64,000 bases of DNA. Origin: Sulfurisphaera javensis. GTDB lineage: Archaea; Thermoproteota; Thermoprotei_A; Sulfolobales; Sulfolobaceae. The position numbers and the translations under genes were made by a program. The notes below the pieces were generated by a model. The model made no database searches and was not told the DNA's origin. It saw nothing but the letters and a program-made list of their open reading frames with translations. The DNA lies in contig NZ_AP031322.1 of assembly GCF_041154675.1 (NCBI RefSeq), forward strand, positions 2,231,812-2,295,811, written 5' to 3'. This document shows, in pieces, positions 6,750 to 23,005 of the stretch; the first letter of the stretch is position 1; each line of letters opens with the position of its first letter.

Positions 6750-7454
6750 ATGGAATTTTCAAAGCTTTCTGAAGGAAAGACAAAAGAGGTTTATGATTAC
6801 GATAGTTCTCACGTCCTTCTAAGGTTTAAGGATTCTATTACGGCTGGCGATGGTGCAAAGAAAGATGAGCTTCCAACGAAAGGTATTCTTAATGCCCAGA
6901 CATCTGCGCTTTTATTCAGACTTTTAGAGTCAAAAGGAATAGAAACTCATTACGTAGGAATGTTTGATGAAAGAACAATGATTGCTAAAAAACTAAAAAT
7001 GATACCAGTTGAAGTGGTACTAAGAAACATAGCTACTGGAAGCATAGTGAAAAGATTACCTATCAAAGAAGGGGAAGTATTTGAACCACCGATAATTGAG
7101 TTCTTTCTAAAGGATGATGAGAGACATGATCCCATGTTAAATTATTACCACATGGAGCACTTGAAATTAATGAATAGAAAAGAGGCGCAACAAATAGAAG
7201 AAATTATGATGAAAGTAAATGACATACTTTATCCCTTCTTTAAGAGTAAGAGACTTATCCTTTATGACTTTAAATTAGAGTTTGGTAGGCTAAGTGATAA
7301 GCTAATAGTTGGAGATGAGATAACCTTAGATTCTATGAGAATTAGAGAAGAAGGAACAGGAAGAATTCTAGATAAAGACCTATATAGAAAAGGAGCTGAC
7401 TTAGAAACAGTTAGGAAAGCTTACGAAGAATTCTTTAAAAGGATAAGTGAGTAA
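6750..7454 (+). CDS. purC: SAICAR synthetase
   Basis: 234 residues. Joins aspartate to CAIR to give SAICAR in purine synthesis. Seen: N-terminal '[11 protein letters not shown]', '[11 protein letters not shown]' and '[17 protein letters not shown]', then '[17 protein letters not shown]' and the metal/nucleotide-site 'LYDFKLEFG' with 'DEITLDSMR'. First gene of the purine operon; no purE, purK, purB or AICAR-processing gene follows, so those steps are encoded elsewhere. Confidence 0.96.
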
Positions 7455-7455
7455 C

Positions 7456-7725
7456 ATGATATATTACGTTGAGCTTATAATAACTAATAAAGAAGGAGTA
7501 AGAGATCCAGAAGGAGAGACAATTCAGCGTTATGTAGTAAGTAGATTTAGTGACAAGATTACAGAGACAAGATCCGGAAAATATCTTCTCTTCAAAGTAG
7601 TTTCAAACAACAAAGATGAGGCCATAGAATTAGTAAAAAAATTGGCCGACGAATTGAGATTATATAATCCAATAGTACATAAAATAGAAGTAAAGGTGAA
7701 TAGAATTGAAGACGGCAGTAATTAA
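7456..7725 (+). CDS. purS: FGAM synthase subunit PurS
   Basis: 89 residues from the ATG at 7456. A GTG at 7447 would add three residues but overlaps purC; an AAGTGAG ribosome site just before the ATG favours 7456. Small alpha/beta protein with 'EGVRDPEGETIQRYV' and 'LADELRLYNPIVHKIEV', typical of PurS, which bridges PurL and PurQ in the multisubunit FGAM synthase. Its 3' end overlaps purQ by 20 bases. Confidence 0.93.
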   Translation: MIYYVELIITNKEGVRDPEGETIQRYVVSRFSDKITETRSGKYLLFKVVSNNKDEAIELVKKLADELRLYNPIVHKIEVKVNRIEDGSN

Positions 7726-8374
7726 ATACCCTGGTACTACTTGTGAGATTGATGTGTATAAAGCGTTATTAGAAGCTGGAGTTAATGCTGAAATAGTTAG
7801 ATATAAAGATTTTGATCCAGATAAATTTGACGCTGTAATCTTGCCAGGAGGTTTTAGTTTTGGGGATTATTTGAGGGCTGGAAGTATAGCTGCTAGTACT
7901 GAAACTATGAAAAAGGTTAAAGAAATGGCATTGGAAGGAAAAACTGTTATTGGAATATGTAATGGTTTCCAAATATTAGTAGAAAGCGGACTGTTAAAAG
8001 GGGCATTATTACCTAACTTAAGCTTACGTTTTATTAGTAAGTGGGTTTACTTAAAAGTTGTAAGGTTTGATACTCCATTAACTCGTGGTTTGAATAAAAA
8101 TGTTATTAGAATGCCAATTGCTCATGCCGAAGGTAGGTTCTATATGGATGACATTGAAGAAGCAAAAAGACTAGCAGTATTATTATATTCAGATGAAAAT
8201 GGAAATGTTGATGAGAAAGTTAATCCTAATGGTTCTATCCTTAACGTTGCATCAATTGCAAATGAGGAAGGAAATGTAATAGGCATGATGCCTCATCCAG
8301 AAAGAGCCTCATTTAAGTTAACTTCACCTTTTGGAGATACTGATGGACTTCTTCTTTTCAGGGGGTTAAAATGA
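7706..8374 (+). CDS. purQ: FGAM synthase glutaminase subunit PurQ
   Basis: 222 residues. Starts with TTG at 7706, supported by AGGTGA at 7694-7699. Class I glutamine amidotransferase that feeds ammonia to PurL. Catalytic triad visible: C85 in GICNGFQIL, H197 and E199 in MMPHPERAS; oxyanion 'LPGGFSFGDYLRAG' is present. Overlaps purS upstream and purL by 4 bases (ATGA) downstream. Confidence 0.96.
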   Translation: MKTAVIKYPGTTCEIDVYKALLEAGVNAEIVRYKDFDPDKFDAVILPGGFSFGDYLRAGSIAASTETMKKVKEMALEGKTVIGICNGFQILVESGLLKGALLPNLSLRFISKWVYLKVVRFDTPLTRGLNKNVIRMPIAHAEGRFYMDDIEEAKRLAVLLYSDENGNVDEKVNPNGSILNVASIANEEGNVIGMMPHPERASFKLTSPFGDTDGLLLFRGLK

Positions 8375-10485
8375 AAATAACTCTTTCACCTTATGAGATG
8401 GAGCTTGTTAGAAAACAATTAGGTAGAGAACCAAATGAAGCTGAATGGCTTACCATAGATGCCTTATGGAGTGAACATTGCTCATATAAATCATCAAAAG
8501 TGTTTCTAAAGAGTTTTCCAAGTGAGGGAGAAAGGGTAGTAATGGGGATTGAAGATTGGCAAGATGCTGGAGCACTAGATATAGGTGATGGATGGGCAAT
8601 AGTTCTAAAACTTGAAAGTCATAATCATCCTTCAGCTATTGATCCTTTTAATGGAGCAGCTACGGGTGTAGGAGGAATTATAAGGGATATTATAAGTAAA
8701 GGAGCTAGGCCTATTGCTTTACTTGACATGATAAGAGTAGGCCCTCTTAACAATTCAAGAAATAGGTGGCTCTTAAAGAACATAATAGCCGGAATAGGGT
8801 TTTACGGCAATAGTATTGGAGTACCAGTCGTTGGTGGCGAATTAGATTTTGATGAGTCCTATACAGATAATCCTTTAGTAGATGTTGCCGGTGTCGGAGT
8901 GGTTAGAAAAGATAAAATAATTCCTAGCGTCATTAAGGAACCTGGATTAAAGATTATAATAGTGGGTTTAACTGGTTTAGATGGACTTGGGGGAGCTTCT
9001 TTTGCCTCCAGAAAGCTTAGTGGGGAAGATGAAATAGGTGCTGTTCAAATAGCTGATCCATTTGCTGGTAAAATTGTGCTTGATGTTACTCTCGAGGTTG
9101 CTGATAAAGTTGAGGCAATTAAGGATTTAGGTGGTGGGGGATTAGTTGTTGGAATAACTGAGATGGCGAACGGTTTTGGCGCAATAGTAAATCTAGATAA
9201 GGTTCCATTAAGAGTTAAGGATTTAAGACCAGAGGAAATATTAGTATCTGAAACACAAGAAAGAATGCTCTTTGCGGTAAAAGATGAAAATGTTGAAAAG
9301 GTATGTAAAGCATTTGAGTATTATGAATATCCTTGTGCTGTAATAGGAGAGTTTACTAAAGAACCTTATATTAAGTTCCTCTATAACGGGAGAGAAGTAG
9401 TTTCACTACCCTCTGATTTACTATTGTCACCCCCAAGGTTTGTATGGGGGGCAAAGAAGGTCAGGGAAAAGAGATTGAATGAGACTAAACCAGAAGTTGG
9501 TTTAGAGGAAAGTGTTAAAGCTGTTGTGTCAAGAATTCTAAGTAAGGAGTGGGCGTATTCTCAGTTTGATTATGAAGTTGGAACTTCAACAGTTTTAAAG
9601 CCCGGAGAAGCTGATTCAGCATTAATTTCTCTTCCAAATGGTAAACTTCTTGCTATAAAAGGAGATGCTAACCCAGATTTATGTGCTGAAGATCCTTATG
9701 AGTGTGGAAAATCTATCGTTGCAGAAGCTTATCGTAATTTAGCATCAGTAGGGGCTATAGGAATAGGAGTTGTTGATCACTTACAATTTGGTGACCCGAG
9801 AAAACCTGATGTGTATTATTCATTTGTCGAAGCAATAAGGGGTATTGCTGAAGCTTCAAAGTTTTTCCAAACACCAATCGTAGGAGGAAAAGTTTCATTT
9901 TATAATGAAAATAAAGAGGGAAAACCAATAAAGCCAACCCCTCTTATAGTAATGGCTGGTTTAGTTAAAGATAAGTTTCTAAGAAATAGTGTGGTTGAGG
10001 ATAGTTACATAGTTCAAGTAGGCTTTACTAGAGATGAAATGAGAGGTTCTCTCTTTACAAAGTTATTTGGAGTTTATGGTGATGTTCCAAAGACCAGGCT
10101 AAATGAAGATTATTTAGCCAGTCAATTGATTGTGGATGCTATTAATGATGAAAAAGTAATTTTTGCTAAGGATATTAATAAAGGTGGATTAATAGGGGCT
10201 ATATTTTCCATCCTAGTTAAAGGAAAGGGAGTAGAGTTAACACTATCTTCTATTCCGTCTGACACGGATGATTGGGTTCCTAAGCTTTTCTCAGAAAATA
10301 GTGGAAGGTTTATTGTTTTAACAAATGACCCGGATTACTTAATGAGAAAAGCTAAGGGAATATACATTTCTGTAGTGGGAAAAGTTACAAAGAATTATGG
10401 AATTCTAGAGATCGATGATAAGAAGATAAATCTAGATAAAGAGATTGAGAATTACTATAATTACCTTAATGAGGTGATGTCATGA
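8371..10485 (+). CDS. purL: FGAM synthase large subunit PurL
   Basis: 704 residues, the size of the small PurL that works with separate PurS and PurQ. Uses ATP and ammonia to convert FGAR to FGAM. Seen: 'EHCSYKSSK' near residue 35, 'KLESHNHPSAIDPFNGAATGVGGIIRDI' region (ATP/Mg site), 'GDANPD' and 'GGKVSFYNE' in the second half, matching the duplicated PurM-like fold. ATGA overlaps with both purQ and purF indicate coupled translation. Confidence 0.97.
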   Translation: MKITLSPYEMELVRKQLGREPNEAEWLTIDALWSEHCSYKSSKVFLKSFPSEGERVVMGIEDWQDAGALDIGDGWAIVLKLESHNHPSAIDPFNGAATGVGGIIRDIISKGARPIALLDMIRVGPLNNSRNRWLLKNIIAGIGFYGNSIGVPVVGGELDFDESYTDNPLVDVAGVGVVRKDKIIPSVIKEPGLKIIIVGLTGLDGLGGASFASRKLSGEDEIGAVQIADPFAGKIVLDVTLEVADKVEAIKDLGGGGLVVGITEMANGFGAIVNLDKVPLRVKDLRPEEILVSETQERMLFAVKDENVEKVCKAFEYYEYPCAVIGEFTKEPYIKFLYNGREVVSLPSDLLLSPPRFVWGAKKVREKRLNETKPEVGLEESVKAVVSRILSKEWAYSQFDYEVGTSTVLKPGEADSALISLPNGKLLAIKGDANPDLCAEDPYECGKSIVAEAYRNLASVGAIGIGVVDHLQFGDPRKPDVYYSFVEAIRGIAEASKFFQTPIVGGKVSFYNENKEGKPIKPTPLIVMAGLVKDKFLRNSVVEDSYIVQVGFTRDEMRGSLFTKLFGVYGDVPKTRLNEDYLASQLIVDAINDEKVIFAKDINKGGLIGAIFSILVKGKGVELTLSSIPSDTDDWVPKLFSENSGRFIVLTNDPDYLMRKAKGIYISVVGKVTKNYGILEIDDKKINLDKEIENYYNYLNEVMS

Positions 10486-11813
10486 AAATAAAAGAACATT
10501 GCGGTATTGTAGGTGTTTATGCTGATAATTCAACTTTTATAACTTATGAGAGTTTAAAATTATTACAACATAGAGGGCAGGAATCAGCTGGTATTACTTA
10601 TTTAAAAGACAATAGACTTGTTACAGTTAAAGGTTTAGGATTAGTAGAAGAGGCACTAGATTCAAGGCTTTTAGTTAATGCTAAATTATCGATTGGTCAT
10701 GTAAGATACTCTACCACTGGTAAAGGTTCATTAGATGAGGCTCAGCCCTTAAGTAATGGTGATATAGCAATAGCGTTCAATGGTACAATAACAAACTATT
10801 ACAAATTTGGTACAAACACAGATACGGAGTTTATTATGAAAGTGATTTCAGAGGCAAGCAATATTAAGGAAGGAATAAGGAGACTAGTTGATTTAGCGGA
10901 CGGGGCTTATTCATTAGTTATAATGACTAAAAAAGGAGAGTTGGTCGGGTTTAGAGATCCTAAAGGTTTTAGACCTTTAGTTTTAGGCAAGATAAATGAT
11001 GGATATATAATTGCTTCTGAGGATTCTGCAATAAGACAATTAGGAGGTAAGCCTTTAAGAGACGTAAAGCCTGGAGAGATGATTTACATTAAGGATGGTG
11101 TAATAGAAAGTGAAATAATCTCCAGAGATAAAGTAAGCTTTTGCTCTTTTGAGTATATCTATTTTGCTAGATCAGATTCTATAATAGATAATGTTCCAGT
11201 CTACAATGCTAGAGTTAGATTGGGAGAAATATTAGCTGAGAATCATGGGGTAGATGCTGATGTAGTTATTCCAGTTCCAGAGTCCTCAATTCCCATAGCT
11301 ATAGGTTTTTCAAGGAAATCAAAGATTCCCCTAGAGTACGGTTTAGTAAGGACTTTAGTAGCTAAAAGATCATTTATAATGCCTACTCAAGATAAAAGGA
11401 ATGCAATAATAGAAGAGAAGTTTGGAGTTGTAAGAAGCGTGATTGAAGGGAAAAGGGTTGTTATAATTGATGATTCAATAGTAAGGGGAAACACCATGAA
11501 AAAGATTGTTAAAATGGTTAAAGATAATGGAGCTAAAGAGGTTCACGTAAGAGTTGGTTCACCAAAGGTAAAGTACCCTTGTTATATGGGTATTGATTTC
11601 CCACTAACGAAGGAGCTAATTGCAAATGACAAAGATGAAAAACAAATTGCTGAATATATTGGTGCAGATTCAGTAGAATACTTAACAGTAGAAGAAATGG
11701 TTAAAGCTATAGGAAGGGAGGATTTATGTCATGCCTGTTTTTCTGGTATATATCCTCTTAAATTTTCATATGATTTTCGTCACCTAGAATCTGTGTTTAA
11801 AAAGGTGAGTTAA
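10482..11813 (+). CDS. purF: amidophosphoribosyltransferase
   Basis: 443 residues. Commits PRPP to purine synthesis by making 5-phosphoribosylamine. The N-terminal nucleophile domain has C7 after a short propeptide (MKIKEH|CGIVGVY), with the glutamine-site motifs HVRYSTTGKG and AFNGTITNY intact. The phosphoribosyltransferase domain has VVIIDDSIVRGNT. Four cysteines in positions like the [4Fe-4S] ligands of Bacillus PurF are visible (SFCSFEY, YPCYMG, CHAC). Propeptide plus cluster ligands suggest the processed Fe-S type. Followed directly by a PurF paralogue. Confidence 0.96.
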   Translation: MKIKEHCGIVGVYADNSTFITYESLKLLQHRGQESAGITYLKDNRLVTVKGLGLVEEALDSRLLVNAKLSIGHVRYSTTGKGSLDEAQPLSNGDIAIAFNGTITNYYKFGTNTDTEFIMKVISEASNIKEGIRRLVDLADGAYSLVIMTKKGELVGFRDPKGFRPLVLGKINDGYIIASEDSAIRQLGGKPLRDVKPGEMIYIKDGVIESEIISRDKVSFCSFEYIYFARSDSIIDNVPVYNARVRLGEILAENHGVDADVVIPVPESSIPIAIGFSRKSKIPLEYGLVRTLVAKRSFIMPTQDKRNAIIEEKFGVVRSVIEGKRVVIIDDSIVRGNTMKKIVKMVKDNGAKEVHVRVGSPKVKYPCYMGIDFPLTKELIANDKDEKQIAEYIGADSVEYLTVEEMVKAIGREDLCHACFSGIYPLKFSYDFRHLESVFKKVS

Positions 11814-13025
11814 ATGGCGGGAATAATTGGTGTTTATGCATTCGATAAGATTTGGAATGTAAGTAAATTTTTATATTATGGTCTAATAGGTTTACAAAAT
11901 AGAGGCTATAGCTATTCTGGATTAGTTGTTTTGAAAGATAATTTTAAAGCTATTACGAATGAGGGGGCACCAGAAGATATCACTTTGCCTTCAGATATTG
12001 ATGGATGGGCTGGAGTTGGGTATACTGGTAGTAAGATTAGTTATCCGATTATTACTGATTATGGTACGTTAGTTGTTGACGGCATAATTAAGGGAGACAT
12101 ACAAGAGATAGCAAAAGGATTATATAAAGAACCAGAAAAAACCTTAAGAGATATACAAGGAGTTTTTTCTTTAATATTTTTAAGTAAAGATGGTAGACTG
12201 ATAGGTTACAGAGATTCATACGGGATTAAACCTCTAGAAATAGGAGGCTTTGGATTTGACTTAGCAATATTGTCCTCAGAAACTTCTGGGATAACAGTAA
12301 TAGGTGGAGAATTCAGAAGGGAGATAAAGCCTGGTGAGGCGGTATTTATTGATACTTATCAAATTTCTTATACTCAAGTTGAGGAAAGTAAGCATAATTA
12401 TTGTGCTATAGACTTAATATATCAATCGAGGATTGATGGGTTTGTATTCAACAGATACATATATGAAACTAGAGTTAAGATAGGAGAACAACTAGCTGAG
12501 GAGAAAAGAATTGATGCAGATGTCGTAATAGGAGTACCAGACACTGCCTTACCTTTTGCAATAGGCTATTCAAAAAGGACTGGAATTCCCTATGATTTAG
12601 GATTTACAAGAACAGGAAGTCCAATAAGAACTATGTTAGCCTCAGACGATTTCTTAAAAGTAATTGGAGTTCAGCTTAAGTTAAATCCAATTAAATCCGT
12701 GGTTAAAGGGAAAAGGGTAATATTAATTGATGACTCCATGGTTACCGGAAGAACATTAAAGAATACAGTATTTAGCCTTAGAAGCCTTGGGGCAAAAGAA
12801 GTTCATGTACTTATAGGAAGTCCAAAATTGATCTCAAGATGTCCTTATGGTATGGAAGTCCCAGAAGAAAAGGATTTAATAGCAGCTAACTTAACTGATG
12901 AAGAGATAGCAAAAGTAATTGGTGCTGATTCTATTTACTGGTTAAGTCTTGAAGGGTTGTATAAAGTTCTTGGTAAGAGTTTATGTGTAGGTTGTATGAC
13001 TAAAAAGTATCCTAGGGTGATTTAA
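11814..13025 (+). CDS. PurF paralogue lacking the glutaminase nucleophile
   Basis: 403 residues, aligned end to end with PurF but beginning MAGIIGVYAFD: the catalytic Cys of CGIVGVY is replaced by Ala. The glutamine-binding motifs are also gone (HVRYSTTG becomes GVGYTGS; FNGTITNY becomes VDGIIKG), so the amidotransferase half should be inactive. The phosphoribosyltransferase half is better kept: VILIDDSMVTGRT for the PRPP loop, and the Fe-S-type cysteines (NYCAID, SRCPYG, CVGC) remain. It starts immediately after the purF stop. It may be a regulatory or structural partner of PurF, or an ammonia-dependent enzyme; neither is proven. Confidence 0.88.
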   Translation: MAGIIGVYAFDKIWNVSKFLYYGLIGLQNRGYSYSGLVVLKDNFKAITNEGAPEDITLPSDIDGWAGVGYTGSKISYPIITDYGTLVVDGIIKGDIQEIAKGLYKEPEKTLRDIQGVFSLIFLSKDGRLIGYRDSYGIKPLEIGGFGFDLAILSSETSGITVIGGEFRREIKPGEAVFIDTYQISYTQVEESKHNYCAIDLIYQSRIDGFVFNRYIYETRVKIGEQLAEEKRIDADVVIGVPDTALPFAIGYSKRTGIPYDLGFTRTGSPIRTMLASDDFLKVIGVQLKLNPIKSVVKGKRVILIDDSMVTGRTLKNTVFSLRSLGAKEVHVLIGSPKLISRCPYGMEVPEEKDLIAANLTDEEIAKVIGADSIYWLSLEGLYKVLGKSLCVGCMTKKYPRVI

Positions 13026-13026
13026 A

Positions 13027-14460
13027 ATGAAAGTTCTATTAGTTGGGGATGGGGCAAGAGAAAACGCGTTAGCTGATGCGTTAGCTAGCTCTCCAAAAGG
13101 ATATAAGGTCTATGCGATCTCTTCTTACATAAATCCGGGTATAAAAGAGGCAGTAGATAAAACTGGTGGAAAATATTTCAAAGGAGATATAAATTCTCCA
13201 ATTTTTGTGAAAGAAATAATAAAGGAAGTTAATCCAGACTTTGGAGTAATTGGGCCAGAGGATCCTTTATTCCATGGAGTTGCTAATGCCTTTAGAGAAG
13301 AAGGTATTCCAGTTGTTGGACCAGATAAAGAGTGTGCAATGATAGAGAAATCGAAGGTTTGGATGAGGGAATTAATGTGGAAATATAATATCCCGGGTAG
13401 ATTAAGGTTTAAAGCATTTGAAGATATACGAGATGCAATAAATTTTATCCTAGAGTATGGTGGATCAATTGCTGTTAAACCTTCTGAACAAATAGGAGGA
13501 AAGGGAGTAAAAGTAGTTGCAGATCTACAAGCTTACTTATCAAACGAAAAAAGGAATGCTATTACAAAAGGAATTGATGGAATTGCGAGTTATGTTAATG
13601 ATAAAGTAAAGGTAATAATAGAGGAAAAGGTAGACGGTCCGGAATATACTCTTCATGTTCTAACTGACGGATATACTCAATTACCATTACCATTAGCTCA
13701 AGATTATAAGCACGCCTATGAGGATGGAATTGGTCCAGAGACCGGGGGTATGGGTTCTATATCTGGTCCAAATAATGGTCTTCCATTTATAAATGAGGAA
13801 GAGTATGAGAAATCCTTTGAAATTGTAAAGCTAACAGCTGAGGCAATAAAGAAAGAGGTGGAAAAGGATTATATAGGAATTTTATCTGGACAAATGATGC
13901 TTACCGGAGTGTGGGGTCCTACAATAATTGAGTATTATTCCAGATTAGGAGATCCAGAGGCTTCTGCTATAATTCCGAGGATACAAAGTGATTTCGGGGA
14001 AGTTTTAGAACTTTTAGCTACGAGAAGATTAAGTAAGGCTAAAATAGAAGTTAATCCAACGCCTTCAGTAGTAAGAGCCGTTGCACCATTAGGCTATCCA
14101 CTAAATAAAACGATGGCTTCGAATCATGTTATTAACGTTGACATGCAAAAACTTAAAGAATTAGGTTGTAAAGTTTATTTTGGTTCAGTTTCTTTAGAAG
14201 GTATGCAATTAATTACTAAAGGTTCAAGAGCTCTAGAATTAGTTGTAATTGATAATTTTGATAAGGCTTCTGAGATTCTCGATAAATGTTTTAATTATGT
14301 TAGCTCGAATACTAAATTAATATTTAGACATGATATAGGAAGAACTATTCAAGATCAAGTCGAGAAAGCAGAGATTGTAAGATATACTTACAAATCGAGA
14401 GAGAGAAAAGGCATTCTAGGAGCCTCCGCGGATTGGTCACCAAATGGTGGTCTATGGTGA
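13027..14460 (+). CDS. purD: glycinamide ribonucleotide synthetase
   Basis: 477 residues. ATP-grasp enzyme joining glycine to phosphoribosylamine, the product of PurF. Seen: N-terminal 'VLLVGDGARENALADALA', 'GPEDPLFHGVANAF', ATP-grasp 'AVKPSEQIGGKGVKV', 'IIEEKVDGPEYTLHV' and 'GPETGGMGSIS', with 'IIEYYSRLGDPEA' for metal binding. It is somewhat longer than bacterial PurD (~430). Starts 1 base after the paralogue and overlaps purM by 7 bases. Confidence 0.95.
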   Translation: MKVLLVGDGARENALADALASSPKGYKVYAISSYINPGIKEAVDKTGGKYFKGDINSPIFVKEIIKEVNPDFGVIGPEDPLFHGVANAFREEGIPVVGPDKECAMIEKSKVWMRELMWKYNIPGRLRFKAFEDIRDAINFILEYGGSIAVKPSEQIGGKGVKVVADLQAYLSNEKRNAITKGIDGIASYVNDKVKVIIEEKVDGPEYTLHVLTDGYTQLPLPLAQDYKHAYEDGIGPETGGMGSISGPNNGLPFINEEEYEKSFEIVKLTAEAIKKEVEKDYIGILSGQMMLTGVWGPTIIEYYSRLGDPEASAIIPRIQSDFGEVLELLATRRLSKAKIEVNPTPSVVRAVAPLGYPLNKTMASNHVINVDMQKLKELGCKVYFGSVSLEGMQLITKGSRALELVVIDNFDKASEILDKCFNYVSSNTKLIFRHDIGRTIQDQVEKAEIVRYTYKSRERKGILGASADWSPNGGLW

Positions 14461-15413
14461 GTGAGTATAAAAAGGCTGGAATTGATTTAAATAAACTAAA
14501 GGATTATCATAATCTTGCTTCAAACATTTTTTCTAACTCTGGTGTTTTAAAAATTGGACATTATGCTGGGGCAATAAAAATTGGCGACAAGTATTTAGCC
14601 ATACATGTTGATGGAGTAGGCACAAAGACTATTTTAGCGTTAAAAACGGGAATAATTGAACCTACTGGGATTGATTGTATTGCTATGAACGTTAATGATC
14701 TAGTTTGTGTTGGTGCAAAACCATTAGCTGGTGTTGATTATTTAGCATTAGAAAAGCCAATGGATGATGTAGTAGAAAAAGTGATGAAGGGTCTAAAGTT
14801 TGGAGCCGATGAAGCTCAAATAGAGATAGTTGGTGGTGAAACTGCCATAATGCCTGGAGTAATAACTGGATATGATCTTTCTTGCTCAGTTATAGGCATA
14901 GCTGAAAAATTGAAAACTGGTGAAGATGTGGAGCCTGGGGATGTTGTTTTAGGATTGAAAAGCAATGGCGTTCACTCTAACGGATATTCTCTAATACGGA
15001 AATTGATAGATGAAGGGAAGCTTTCGCTTAAAGATTGGGGAGAAGAACTAATGAAACCTACTAGAATATATTCGTCTTCTGTAATACCGATCTTAGATAA
15101 AATAAAAGCTTTAGCTCATATTACTGGTGGTTCATTTTCTAAGCTAAAAAGAATAACAAACTATAGGATTAATCTAAAAATGCCAGATCCACCCGAAATT
15201 TTTAAAGCAATTGAGAATTCTGGTGTACCTCATTTTGAAATGTATAAAGTTTTCAATATGGGTATAGGCATGATTATATTTGTTTCAAAGGATCTTAAAG
15301 ATGATATAATTGAATTTTTGAGTAAAAAAGAGACTGTGTATGAACTAGGTTATGTGGAAAAAGGCGAAGGGATTAAAATAACGACGTATAAGAACGAAAT
15401 TCTCTATATATAG
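14454..15413 (+). CDS. purM: phosphoribosylformylglycinamidine cyclo-ligase (AIR synthetase)
   Basis: About 319 residues from the ATG at 14454, preceded by GGTGG; an in-frame TTG at 14433 would add seven residues. Converts FGAM to AIR. Seen: 'YKKAGIDLNKLKDYHNL', 'AIHVDGVGTKTILALKTG' (ATP/Mg-binding Asp), 'AMNVNDLVCVGAKPLAGVDY', 'VGGETAIMPG' and 'GLKSNGVHSNGYSLIRK'. Last gene of the purine operon; a short gap with its own promoter for the next gene follows. Confidence 0.94.
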   Translation: MVSEYKKAGIDLNKLKDYHNLASNIFSNSGVLKIGHYAGAIKIGDKYLAIHVDGVGTKTILALKTGIIEPTGIDCIAMNVNDLVCVGAKPLAGVDYLALEKPMDDVVEKVMKGLKFGADEAQIEIVGGETAIMPGVITGYDLSCSVIGIAEKLKTGEDVEPGDVVLGLKSNGVHSNGYSLIRKLIDEGKLSLKDWGEELMKPTRIYSSSVIPILDKIKALAHITGGSFSKLKRITNYRINLKMPDPPEIFKAIENSGVPHFEMYKVFNMGIGMIIFVSKDLKDDIIEFLSKKETVYELGYVEKGEGIKITTYKNEILYI

Positions 15414-16251: not shown

Positions 16252-17424
16252 ATGAAAATAGTTCTTGCATACTCTGGTGGGTTAGACACAACGGTAGCAA
16301 TAAGATGGCTAAAGGAAACCTTTAACGCTAACGTTATCACAGTTACTGTAGATGTAGGGCAAAAAGATAATTTTGAAGATATAGAAAAAAGAGCATATAT
16401 TGCTGGTGCATTAAAACATTATACAATTGATGCAAAAAAGGAATTTGCTGAGAATTTCATTTCGTATGCAATTAAAATGAATGCATTATATGAAGATGTA
16501 TATCCGTTGTCAACAGCATTAGCAAGACCATTAATAGCCCAAAAAGTAGTAGAAATAGCAAAGAAGGAGAACGCTGAGTACATAGCTCATGGTTCAACAT
16601 CTAAGGGAAATGATCAAGTAAGATTTGACTTAGCTGTTAAAGCTCTATATCCAGAAGCAAAAATAATTGCGCCAGCAAGAATATGGAATATGACTAGAGA
16701 AAAAGAGATAGAATTTGCTAAAGAAAGAGGTATTCCGATAAAAACAGAAAGCAGTAAATATAGTATAGATGAAAACTTATGGGGAAGAAGCATTGAAGGA
16801 GACGATATATCAGATCCTTCAAAAGAAGTTCCTGAAGATGCTTTTGAGTGGACTAAAAAGAGAAATTCCGGTAAATTAACATTAAGCATAGAATTTAATC
16901 AAGGAATTCCTGTTTCAGTAAATAATGAAAAAGTAGACTTAGTTAAACTTATTCAATTATTGAATGATTTAGTTGGTTCGTATGGTTTTGGTAGGGTAGA
17001 ACATTTAGAAAATAGAGTTGTTGGATTTAAATCGAGAGAAGTATATGAAGTTCCTGCAGCTTTAGTCTTGATAAATTCACATAAAGACTTAGAGAAGACT
17101 GTGTATTCCCCGTTAGAATTAAGGTTTAAGAAAATGATTGATGCGCAATGGTCAGATTTGGTTTATCAAGGCTTATGGTTTGAGCCATTGAGAGAGACGT
17201 TGCAATTAGCTGGAGATAATTTAAACAAATGGGTAAGTGGCGAAGTTAAAGTTGAGATTGAAGGAAATGGAATGAGAATACTAGGAAGAAGTTCAAAGTA
17301 CTCTCCATTCTCAGAAAAAGTAGCAAGTTATAATAAGGGTTGGTATCCTACAGACGAAATGGCAAGAGGATTTATTGAAATTTATGGTATGCATTCATTG
17401 CTTACAAGACAGGTGAGAGAGTAG
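16252..17424 (+). CDS. argG: argininosuccinate synthase
   Basis: 390 residues. Condenses citrulline and aspartate using ATP. Seen: N-terminal PP-loop '[17 protein letters not shown]', '[20 protein letters not shown]', '[15 protein letters not shown]' and '[14 protein letters not shown]', all diagnostic. First gene of argG-argH-carA-carB-argX, linking arginine and carbamoyl phosphate synthesis. Confidence 0.97.
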
Positions 17425-18761
17425 TGGTTCTTTACAGAAAATGGGGTTCAGAAAAAGATTACGTTTCAACTTATACTTCTTCTATTGAAAGTGACAAGGA
17501 AATACTAGAGGAAGTAAAACTTGTCATGAAAGCTCATGTTATTGAATTGTATCTTTCTGGTTATTTAAATAAAGAAATAGCAGGAAAAATAATTAGTGCA
17601 ATTAATTCTTTTCATGAAATTAAAGAGGGATATGAGGATGTTCATGAAGCTTTAGAAGATTATATCATAAAAACTGTTGGAGAAGAAGGAGGGTGGGTAG
17701 GATTTGGAAGAAGTAGAAATGATCACGTTGCTACGGCATTAAGACTTAGAGTGAGAAAGTATTTGATTGATATTCTTTATAGTTTATTAGATTTAAGAAA
17801 AACTTGCATTGAAAAAAGCAAAGTAAGTAAGGAAATTCTTTTCCCAACTTATACTCATTTTCAGCCAGCACAACCTTCAACTTTAGCTCATTACTTACTT
17901 TATATAGAGGATGAATTGTATTCTATTTGGAATTATCTTTTCTCTTCTCTTTTAATGGTAAATAGATCTCCCTTAGGTAGTGGTGCTATTGTAGGTACAA
18001 ATGCAAAGTTAGATAGAAAAAGAGAAGCAGAATTGCTAGGTTTTGATGACATTATATATAATACTATTTCTGCGACTTCCTCTAGACTTGATTTAATTCA
18101 ATCGATTTCTAATTTATCCTTACTTATGCTGTTTTTAAGTAGAATTTCTGAAGATTTAATTTTACTCTCCTCCATGTTCATTAATTTAGTAAAAATTCCA
18201 GATTCACATGTTAGTACCAGTAGTTTAATGCCACAAAAGAGAAATGCCGTAACTTTAGAGGTTTTAAGAAGTAAGGCTGGGGAATGCTTTGGAGATCTAT
18301 CTTCCCTTTACGTTATTTACAAAGGTTTACCGTCTGGTTATAATTTAGATTTACAAGAAATGAATAAGCATTATTGGAATTGCATAAAAATGGTAATTCC
18401 TTCACTAGAAGTAATAAATTCAATAATAAATGGTATTGAAGTCCAAGAGTTTAAAGTTGATGAAAAAATAACTGCTACAGATGTTGCTGAAGACTTGGCT
18501 ATTACTGGAATACCGTACAGAAAAGCTTATATGGAAGTGGCTAACAAGATTAGAGCGGGCACTTTTATATCTGAAATTTCACCAAAAATTTCTATATATA
18601 AAAAAGCAGTTATAGGCTCACCTAATCCAGAATTATTAGCAGAAGAAATTAAAAATAAAGAAAACAGGCTAATAGAGGATGAGAATAAGCTTAAAAGTTA
18701 TGAAGAAAAAATCTTGGGAAAATTAAATGAACTTAAGGTGATAGAAGATGATATATTGTAA
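17424..18761 (+). CDS. argH: argininosuccinate lyase
   Basis: 445 residues. Splits argininosuccinate to arginine and fumarate. GTG start at 17424 overlaps the argG stop by 1 base; AGGTGAG at 17411-17417 is its ribosome site. Seen: '[10 protein letters not shown]', '[15 protein letters not shown]', '[18 protein letters not shown]' and the fumarase-superfamily signature '[20 protein letters not shown]' with its catalytic Ser loop. Confidence 0.96.
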
Positions 18762-19863
18762 GAGAGGTTACAAAGGTTACTTATACCTTGAGGACGGTAC
18801 ACTAATTGAAGGTTGTGGTTTTGGTGCTAGGACAATTAGGGCTGGAGAAGTGGTATTCACAACGTCAATGAATGGTTATCCAGAGAGCTTAACTGATCCT
18901 TCATATAGAGGGCAAATTTTAGTAATAACCCATCCATTAGTAGGAAACTATGGAGTACCAGAGAAACAAAGAGTAGAAGGAATATTAACTAACTTTGAAT
19001 CTGAAGAAATTCAAGTGGAGGGACTAGTTGTTGCTGAAGAAACTGATCCATTTAAATGGAACTCATCTAAGAGCCTGCATGAATGGTTAGCTAGTGAAGG
19101 AATTCCTGGAATTTCTGATGTAGATACAAGAAGTATTGTAAAAAAAGTAAGAAGCCATGGAGTTATGATGGGAGTTATTGCTTCCGGATATGAGTTAGAA
19201 GATCCTAGAAAATATCTAGAGAAGAAATATGACGAAATAGATTTTACACAATTTACCTCACCTAAAGCTCCGATTGTACATTTAGGAAATAGCGGAGAAA
19301 CGATAGTTTTAGTAGATTGTGGTATAAAGCATGGTATACTTTACCAGCTACACTTAAGAGGATTTACAATAGTTAGAGTACCTTGTAAGTTTACTGCTGA
19401 CAAGATTATGGATTATTATCCAAAGGGGATCGTATTTGGTAATGGTCCAGGCAATCCTAATTTATTACAAGATGTCATAAAGAATTTCAAGGACTTAACT
19501 GAATATAAAATCCCTATACTTGGTATTTGTTTAGGTCATCAAGTTGCAACGTTAGCTTTAGGAGGTAAAGTAAAGAAGATGAAATTCGGGCATAGAGCTA
19601 TAAACAAACCAGTGATAGATGTAACAACAAACAAGTGTTACATTACAACACATAATCACGGTTATGGAATACTTTCTAAGGAAGATTTACCTCAAAATAC
19701 AAAGCTTTGGTTTTATAATCCAGATGATAGCACAATAGAGGGCTGGATGCACGAGAAATTACCTATAATTACCACTCAATTCCATCCAGAAGCAAGACCT
19801 GGACCTTGGGATGTTACTTGGGTATTCGATAAATTTAAGAAAATGGTGAGTCGAAATGCGTGA
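18748..19863 (+). CDS. carA: carbamoyl phosphate synthase small subunit
   Basis: 371 residues. Hydrolyses glutamine and passes ammonia to CarB. N-terminal CPSase_sm domain '[18 protein letters not shown]' and '[19 protein letters not shown]'; C-terminal class I amidotransferase with nucleophile in [10 protein letters not shown] and the His/Glu pair in [12 protein letters not shown]. Overlaps argH by 14 bases and carB by 8 bases. The carbamoyl phosphate serves both arginine and pyrimidine synthesis. Confidence 0.97.
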
Positions 19864-22800
19864 ATCTGTAAAGAAAGTACTAGTTGTAGGTTCTGGTCCA
19901 ATAAAAATAGCTGAGGCAGCTGAGTTTGACTATTCTGGAAGTCAGGCATTAAAGGCATTAAAAGAGGAAGGAATAGAAACAGTATTAGTAAACTCTAATG
20001 TAGCTACTGTACAAACTAGTAAAAAATTTGCTGATAGGTTATATATGATCCCCGTAACGTGGTGGGCCGTTGAAAAGGTTATAGAAAAAGAAAGACCGGA
20101 TGGGATAATGGTAGGATTTGGAGGCCAGACAGCATTAAACGTTGGTGTAGACTTGTATAAGAGAGGTGTTCTTCAGAAGTATGGTGTAAAAGTCTTAGGA
20201 ACTCCTATTGAAGGTATTGAAAGAGCTTTAAGTAGAGAAAAATTCAGGGAGACAATGATTAAAGTTGGTTTACCAGTTCCACCAAGTCTTTCTGCCAGAA
20301 GTGAAGAGGAAGCATTACAAAAAGCCAGACAAATAGGATATCCAGTAATGGTAAGAGTCAGCTTTAATTTAGGTGGTAGAGGTTCTATAGTTGCGTGGAA
20401 TGAAGAAGAATTAAAAAGAGATATAGGTAGAGCTTTGAGCCAAAGTTATATTCATGAGGTTCTTATTGAAAAATATCTCCATCACTGGATCGAATTAGAA
20501 TATGAGGTAATGAGGGATAGATACGGGAATTCTGCTGTAATTGCATGTATTGAAAACTTAGATCCAATGGGTGTTCATACTGGCGAATCTACAGTTATTT
20601 CACCTTGTCAGACTTTAGACAATAAGGAATTTCAGGATATGAGATTTATGTCAATGGATGTAGCGAAGTCAATAGATTTAATCGGTGAATGTAATGTACA
20701 ATTTGCACTAGATCCTAAAGGTTACAATTACTACGTGATTGAAACAAATCCGAGAATGTCAAGATCTAGTGCCTTAGCAAGTAAGGCAACTGGTTATCCT
20801 TTAGCTTATGTCTCAGCAAAGTTGGCTTTAGGCTATAGTCTATATGAAGTATTAAATAAGGTGTCTGGATCAACTTGCGCTTGCTTTGAGCCTAGCTTAG
20901 ATTATGTAGTAATAAAAATACCAAGGTGGGATTTAGCAAAGTTCGAAAACGTCGAAATAAGTCTAGCTTCAGAAATGAAGAGTGTAGGAGAAGTTATGAG
21001 CATTGGAAGATCATTCGAAGAAGCTATACAAAAGGCTATAAGAATGCTTGATATTGGTGAGCCTGGAATAGTTGGAGGAAAAATATACTTCTCTAGGATG
21101 ACTAAAGAGGAAGCATTAAAACATCTTAAAGAGAGAAGACCATACTGGTTTCTCTATGCTGCTAAAGCGTTTAAAGAAGGTGCAAGTATAGATGAAGTTT
21201 ACAATGTTACTGGAGTAAATAAGTTCTTCCTTAACAAGATAAAGAATTTAGTTGAGTTCTATGAAGGTTTGATTAAACAAAAAGAGATAGATAAAGATAC
21301 ATTACTAAAGGCTAAAAGACTTGGGTTTAGTGATTTACAAATAGCTAAAGCAGTTGGTAAGAAAGAAAATGAAATTAGGGAAATGAGAGAACAATTTGGA
21401 ATAGAACCAAGAGTAAAACAAATAGACACTCTAGCTGGAGAATGGCCTGCAGTCACTAACTATCTTTATGTAACTTATAACGGGAGCGAAGATGATATAG
21501 AGTTTTCTAGTACTGGAAATAAATTACTTATAATAGGTGCTGGTGGATTTAGAATCGGAGTATCTGTTGAATTTGATTGGGGTGTCGTATCTTTACTTGA
21601 CAGTTCCTTAAAGTACTTTAATGACGTTGCTATTCTTAACTATAATCCAGAAACTGTATCTACAGATTGGGATGTTGCCAGAAAATTATATTTTGATGAA
21701 ATTTCTGTAGAGAGAGTATTAGATCTAATTAAAAAGGAAAAGTTTACTTATGTTGCGACATTTACTGGAGGTCAAATAGGTAACAATATATCTAAAAAAC
21801 TAGAGGAAGAAGGAGTAAGATTATTAGGTACTTCTGGAAAAAGTGTTGATACAGCAGAAGATAGAGAGAAATTCTCTAAGTTACTCGATAAATTAGGTAT
21901 AAAACAACCAGAGTGGATATCAGCTAGATCATTAGAGGAAGTAAAGGAGTTTGTTAATAGGGTCGGATATCCTGTTCTCATTAGACCAAGTTACGTATTG
22001 AGTGGAGCCGCAATGAAGATCGTGAATAATGACCTTGAGTTAATGGAATATCTAAAGAGAGCTACTGAGGTATCCCCAGAACATCCTGTAGTGATTTCAA
22101 AATATTTAAATGATGCAATAGAGGCTGAAATAGATGCGGCTGCGGATGGTAAAGGAGTTTATGGTGTAATATTAGAACATGTGGAAGAGGCTGGTGTACA
22201 TAGTGGAGACGCTACTATGTCTATACCTTATAGAAAAATGTCAGTAGCTACAGTGGAAAAAATGAAAGAAAATGTTCACTCAATAGTTAGAGAATTAGAA
22301 ATAAAAGGGCCATTTAACGTTCAATTCGTAGTTAAAAACAATGAGCCTTATATTATAGAACTAAATCTAAGAGCAAGCAGATCTATGCCATTTAGTAGCA
22401 AAGTAGTTGGTAAAAACATAATCTCGTTAGCCCTTGATGGAATATTAAACGGATTTAATACAGATGAATTTGTTGAGTTAAAATCTAAGGTATGGGGTGT
22501 AAAATCACCTCAATTCTCATGGGCACAATTAAAGGGGGCATACCCATTCCTAGGACCAGAGATGAGAAGTACTGGAGAAGCTGCATCATTAGGTATAGAT
22601 TTTTATGATGCTTTGTTAAAGAGTTGGTTATCATCTAGTCCAAATAGATTACCAAACAAAGGCGGAATTGCCTTAGTTTATGGGAAAACAAACATAGACT
22701 ATCTTAAAATAGCTGCAAAGAACTTAATGGAATATGGTTTAACAGTATATACTTTATCAGATGCAAGTATAGGAATTGAAGAGAAGAGTGTTAAAGAAAC

Positions 22801-23005
22801 AATAGATCTAATCAGAGACAGAAAAGTTGAAATTCTAGTAACCGATGGTTATCTTAAACATATAGATTATGAGGTGAGGCGTATTGCCGTGGATTATAAT
22901 ATACCAATCATCTTAAACGGTAGATTAGGAGCTGAAGTTACAAGAGCTTTTTCTTATCCAAACATTACGTACTATGAAATAAGTGAGTATGGTGCTGGAA
23001 TATGA
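19856..23005 (+). CDS. carB: carbamoyl phosphate synthase large subunit
   Basis: 1049 residues. Two homologous ATP-grasp halves: '[21 protein letters not shown]' opens the first and '[19 protein letters not shown]' the second. ATP-grasp motifs '[14 protein letters not shown]' and '[16 protein letters not shown]', with '[22 protein letters not shown]' and '[20 protein letters not shown]'. The C-terminal ~130 residues form the MGS-like allosteric domain. Slightly shorter than bacterial CarB (~1070). ATGA overlap with argX. Confidence 0.97.

Follow-up and report, generated by a model that had tools for sequence, protein, structure and literature searches.

We analysed a window of 64,000 nucleotides from Sulfurisphaera javensis (RefSeq GCF_041154675.1, contig NZ_AP031322.1, positions 2,231,812 to 2,295,811), in which the purine genes lie on the forward strand in the order purC-S-Q-L-F-F'-D-M. 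The upstream genes purC, purS, purQ and purL (6750-10485) run into purF (10482-11813), whose product is the glutaminase-competent partner: it has the catalytic Cys and the HVRY, FNGT and TDTE motifs, and scores 420.6 bits against the NCBIfam purF model (TIGR01134). The next gene, hereafter purF' (11814-13025, 403 aa, ATG start), encodes a PurF paralogue without a glutaminase site, and is followed by purD (13027-14460) and, downstream, purM (14433-15413), all on the + strand. A GGTGAG ribosome-binding stretch precedes the ATG of purF', and the TAA of purF (11811-11813) stands in the same frame immediately before it; thus, no upstream extension can give PurF' a Cys. After the purine genes, argG, argH, carA and carB form a closely packed run (16252-23005), and argG and carA are found near purM in other Sulfolobaceae too.

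The window PurF' and the adjoining PurF are 33% identical across an alignment of 425 columns (E 7e-71), which bears out the preliminary description of a second, full-length PurF directly after purF. Its account of the active site also held: Ala2 (codon 11817-11819) stands where PurF has its catalytic N-terminal Cys (E. coli Cys1), and both glutamine-binding motifs are replaced (HVRY by YTGS, FNGT by VDGI), while the TDTE segment is unrecognisable in the alignment with PurF. In E. coli numbering, the glutamine-binding and oxyanion positions have lost Arg73 and show Asp for Asn101; a lone Asp aligns at 127, with its position uncertain since the TDTE motif is gone. The Fe-S-type cysteines were correctly reported as kept, namely Cys197 (12402-12404; the first Fe-S ligand position, B. 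subtilis Cys236), Cys343 (12840-12842), and Cys391 and Cys394 (12984-12995). The transferase half comprises the PPi loop GVPDTAL (residues 240-246; 12531-12551), the flexible loop (residues 264-291; 12603-12686), which carries PurF'-specific TG and GVQLKLN motifs together with the invariant Arg272 and Lys289 (E. coli Arg332 and Lys349), and the PRPP loop VILIDDSMVTGRT (residues 302-314; 12717-12755). The PRPP loop is thus kept, as had been stated, but it differs from the PurF loop (VTGRT versus VRGNT), and the flexible loops of the two proteins are clearly distinct. The transferase catalytic residues P242, R272, K289, D306, D307, G312 and T314 are all present, and Y203, L275 (a conservative change) and L355 stand at the ammonia-channel positions Y258, I335 and L415.

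Against TIGR01134, the window PurF' reaches 213.3 bits, below the cut-off of 350, and the match begins only at residue 100. Pfam detected phosphoribosyltransferase and glutamine amidotransferase models only, with no DNA- or RNA-binding domain, and there were weak matches to other phosphoribosyltransferase (PRTase) models, the PRPP loop VTGRT being of type I. An AlphaFold model built from the family alignment had a pLDDT of 92.6, with the flexible loop as its weak part, and its closest structures, matched along the full protein, were GPATases from plants, B. subtilis and E. coli (1ao0, TM 0.87).

Within the order, homologues at 62-87% identity were found in all other sampled Sulfolobaceae, and weaker ones in many other families. 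A PurF' profile matched 90 of the 299 genomes of the phylum at 1e-85; five of these (G113, G149, G227, G270 and G317) carry PurF only, leaving PurF' in at least 85. All 63 aligned Thermoproteota PurF' proteins come from genomes that also encode a Cys-bearing PurF, and none of the 63 has Cys1; all have open frames. The homologues are 393-448 aa long and retain the whole dead glutaminase domain. Genomes with PurF alone are common (e.g., L114-L120 and L129-L133), and PurF' is therefore an accessory rather than a replacement. A scan of named genomes extended the range to Theionarchaea (L144), Candidatus Jordarchaeum of the Asgard archaea (L145), Methanomethylicota (L147), Bathyarchaeota (L149, L150) and Nitrososphaerota MAGs (L146, L151, L209). 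The phylum of the Jordarchaeum genome has PurF' in 13 of 196 genomes (16 matches minus three that are PurF only: G358, G383 and G406), plus one probable PurF' fragment at a contig end (L286), and the phylum of the Theionarchaea genome in 6 of 110. The NCBIfam purF cut-off is reached in just 80 of the 299 Thermoproteota genomes, many others having full-length matches a little below it, and some Asgard PurF' copies exceed it; automatic naming of PurF versus PurF' in archaea is unreliable.

The commonest gene order, from Sulfolobaceae through Asgard archaea, is purL-purF-purF'-purD, although the loci compared are not independent of each other. At eight loci where purF' lies away from purF (L061, L072-L074, L225-L227 and L230), it still adjoins purD, the neighbour that purF' usually keeps when the two are apart. 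Exceptions are the L128/L231-L234 group (purL-purF-purF'-purM), L228 and L229 (purQ-purF'-purM), and four loci of family f7 (L048, L050, L079 and L081) in which purF' has no recognised purine neighbour. Family f19 (L223-L230), in which purF' is often beside purD and apart from purF, has the most eroded N-terminal half, in open frames of 379-416 aa.

We then compared 50 PurF' sequences with PurF column by column, using E. coli numbering and a reference sequence checked against the PDB chain. Thirteen near-invariant PurF columns are lost in PurF', eight of which form the glutaminase site (C1, H71, R73, Y74, T76, N101, N106 and D127), the other five being 259, 334, 402, 408 and 436; Asn101 is Asp in 37 of the 50. 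The preliminary description had proposed checking the conservation of the PRPP loop, where D366, D367 and G372 proved to be present in 50/50 sequences and T374 in 49/50. Among the remaining PRPP-transferase residues, P302, R332 and K349 are likewise found in 50/50, versus only 41/54 for K349 in PurF itself. The channel residues are also retained (Y258 in 49/50, L415 in 48/50, and I or L at position 335 in 46/50). Cysteines 403, 457 and 460 occur in all sequences and 252 in 96%, the exception being a group of family f8 genomes (L064-L067), in which Ser replaces this first Fe-S cysteine and the cluster may be absent or altered. In the flexible loop, residues 326 to 329 are changed (K326, R328, Y329). 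F264, T267 and P344 are newly conserved, PurF'-specific positions. The roles of these residues in the PRPP site, the channel and the glutaminase are established for the E. coli and B. subtilis GPATases. As judged from the alignment, the PurF' family varies least at the residues predicted to handle PRPP and pyrophosphate, the mobile-loop pair among them. An unusual flexible loop is also seen in the Cys-bearing PurF of Sulfolobaceae (10482-11813 in the window; also L036-L047), where it is of the type RTLVAKRSFI versus KNRYVGRTFI; the change hits positions 326, 328 and 329, which in E. coli PurF have a part in nucleotide feedback and in signalling between the domains.

In the phylogenetic tree, a branch supported at 100/100 (ultrafast bootstrap/SH-aLRT) separates the 49 PurF' rows from the rest; this branch was present in 100% of 200 bootstrap trees, and a larger quick tree agreed. 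A single clade across phyla implies either an old duplication or gene transfer between phyla. Comparison with a congener (L036) gave dN/dS values of 0.033 for PurF', 0.043 for PurF, 0.041 for PurL and 0.040 for PurD; as dS is near saturation in this comparison, dN is the safer number, and in the transferase half it was 0.059 for PurF' and 0.089 for PurF. Within Sulfolobaceae, the mean identity of the transferase half was 76% for PurF' versus 69% for PurF, and that of PurF' was the more conserved in 96% of 120 genome pairs. Outside that family, it is more usually PurF that has the better conserved transferase half. A division of labour based on domain-wise rates was thus rejected, the pattern being confined to Sulfolobaceae and reversed elsewhere.

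The Asgard members bear on how the glutaminase was lost. The PurF' of Jordarchaeales is an INTERMEDIATE, with Cys1, Asn101 and Gly102 kept and SP or CP in place of Arg73-Tyr74, and the eight genomes that represent the order of Jordarchaeum all encode such a Cys1-keeping PurF'. Arg73 is missing from every PurF' seen; together with the Cys1 kept in Jordarchaeales, this makes loss of the glutamine loop, rather than of the nucleophile, the clade-wide feature. Cys1 requires at least two changes on the tree, and repeated loss or one regain is possible on these sequences. Loss of Cys1 as the founding event is uncertain, since the Cys1-bearing Jordarchaeales nest inside the PurF' clade. The Cys-bearing PurF of all eight Jordarchaeales genomes has Ala or Ser at the PRPP-loop Gly372, a pattern that at first suggested complementary loss, with PurF giving up its transferase wherever PurF' is present. 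Across the loci compared, this Gly is missing in 12 of 186 PurF-type ORFs and constant in 174; the Gly-less Asgard PurF sequences (DDSIVR[AS]TT) are those at L145, L250-L253, L256, L258, L259, L270, L272, L284 and L294. Ala at this position was seen only in genomes also carrying PurF'. At four of these Asgard loci (L270, L272, L284 and L294), where PurF has Ser372, PurF was the only match of the PurF' profile in the genome; a PurF without a partner therefore tolerates Ser, and loss of the Gly does not require PurF'.

The PurF' class and the ammonia hypothesis have been known since Brown et al. 2011 (Biol Direct 6:63, PMC3261824), who described PurF' in Crenarchaeota as a second PurF-like cluster, with a single member in each crenarchaeal genome, an N-terminal residue other than Cys (frequently Ala or Val) and a place beside purF in the purine cluster, and who proposed, as a hypothesis, ammonia-dependent activity. 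The window protein resembles that PurF' in lacking the N-terminal Cys, in belonging to a separate cluster and in its purF and purine neighbours, whereas the clade described here extends beyond Crenarchaeota and is defined by loss of Arg73-Tyr74, not of Cys1. The openly searchable literature yielded no experimental study of PurF' after 2011. Compared with PurF (EC 2.4.2.14; 1ao0, 1ecb), PurF' shares the two-domain fold, the PPi and PRPP loops, the flexible-loop Arg and Lys, the channel residues and the four Fe-S cysteines of the B. subtilis type, but lacks the nucleophile and the glutamine-binding and oxyanion residues. Regulators of the PRTase fold (PurR, PyrR and GfcR) are alike in their non-standard use of a PRPP-binding fold; unlike them, PurF' has no DNA- or RNA-binding domain by Pfam and keeps the full PurF two-domain architecture. 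What is new is the broader distribution, a redefinition of the clade by its missing Arg73, with an intermediate that still bears Cys, the assignment of lost and kept functions to individual residues, and the association with purD.

The preliminary description argued that a stable operon member of this kind is under selection for a non-glutaminase role, which is well supported by the conserved clade, the low dN, the retention in the operon and the lack of decay. Among the three roles it offered, ammonia-dependent synthesis fits best because the PRPP-transferase catalytic residues and the ammonia-channel residues are kept; a regulatory subunit is possible, and a pure PRPP sensor is less likely. 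R332 and K349 lie on the mobile loop that closes over PRPP in catalysis, and a simple PRPP sensor would not need them. We tentatively favour, at close to even chances, the view that, of the functions of PurF, this paralogue lost glutamine hydrolysis specifically and may still act as a PRPP amino-transferase using ammonia. PurF' would make phosphoribosylamine from PRPP and ammonia, the latter supplied either by the glutaminase-active PurF, joined with it in a mixed assembly or lying next to it, or by cellular ammonium, and entering through the retained interdomain channel; the unstable phosphoribosylamine would then pass to PurD, whose gene is next door. The glutaminase-site loss, the retained PRPP-site, channel and Fe-S residues, the purifying selection and the co-occurrence with PurF are observed; from these we infer catalysis, the ammonia source, complex formation and the hand-off to PurD. 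In favour of this view, the lost positions fall mainly in the glutaminase site, the transferase half in Sulfolobaceae is better conserved and has a lower dN than that of PurF, the structural model matches whole GPATases, and the purF-purF'-purD order reaches from Sulfolobaceae to Asgard archaea. E. coli PurF without Cys1 loses glutamine use and retains ammonia use (PMC3261824), and transfer of phosphoribosylamine from E. coli PurF to PurD has kinetic evidence, with no stable complex found (review, PMC10912719). Adjacency of purF' and purD makes a role in such a hand-off plausible, yet is not evidence of contact. Against a catalytic role, many archaea make purines with PurF alone, so that PurF' is dispensable for the reaction, and the N-terminal domain is kept in all homologues despite its dead active site, which fits a structural or regulatory subunit too; residues 326 to 329 of the flexible loop are changed, and conserved residues do not prove turnover.

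The main rival to the ammonia-dependent transferase, somewhat less probable but a serious contender, is that PurF' has no catalysis of its own and serves PurF, or a complex of PurF and PurD, as a regulatory or assembly subunit, binding PRPP or nucleotides and tuning the first step. The constant presence of PurF in the same genome (63/63), mostly adjoining, the retention of the entire inactive glutaminase domain at 393-448 aa and the kept PRPP and PPi loops would all suit such a subunit, and the inactive PRPP-synthetase-associated proteins are a precedent for a regulatory paralogue. The latter resemble PurF' in being paralogues beside an active nucleotide-pathway enzyme, and so offer a model for a regulatory subunit; they belong to another family, and PurF' keeps the transferase catalytic residues. 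The R332 and K349 equivalents, however, are invariant in PurF', K349 more so than in PurF, and the nucleotide-site residues K326 and R328 are not kept. A further, rather unlikely arrangement is that the two proteins are obligate partners in a two-subunit PRPP amidotransferase of these archaea, in which ammonia from PurF would be used by PurF' to make phosphoribosylamine for PurD within an assembly that shields this heat-labile intermediate. It is less probable again that PurF' is a phosphoribosyltransferase for an acceptor other than ammonia: the type-I PRPP loop VTGRT resembles that of other transferases, the weak PRTase-model matches and the new conserved positions F264, T267 and P344 are compatible with it, but the linkage to purL, purF and purD across phyla and the kept channel residues point to the first purine step. 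Finally, the idea of a duplicate that survives by chance while it decays, or of a sequence error, is hardly credible and already refuted by the breadth and conservation of PurF': the whole active site is lost and the f19 N-terminal halves are very divergent, but PurF' is one clade (100/100) with intact frames in all homologues examined, a dN/dS of ~0.03 between congeners and invariant PRPP-transferase catalytic residues, which also disposes of the free decay of homologues considered in the preliminary description, while its other proviso, an error at the start hiding a Cys, and likewise a missed upstream start, are ruled out by the stop before the ATG and by the 63 of 63 Thermoproteota homologues without Cys1.

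The first committed step of purine synthesis is usually treated as the work of one enzyme, yet this archaeal clade keeps a second, glutaminase-dead copy under strong selection. The Asgard PurF' proteins with Cys1 but no Arg73 are natural intermediates for studying how amidotransferases lose their glutaminase, and the nitrogen supply or control of the first purine step in archaea carrying PurF' becomes a directly testable question.
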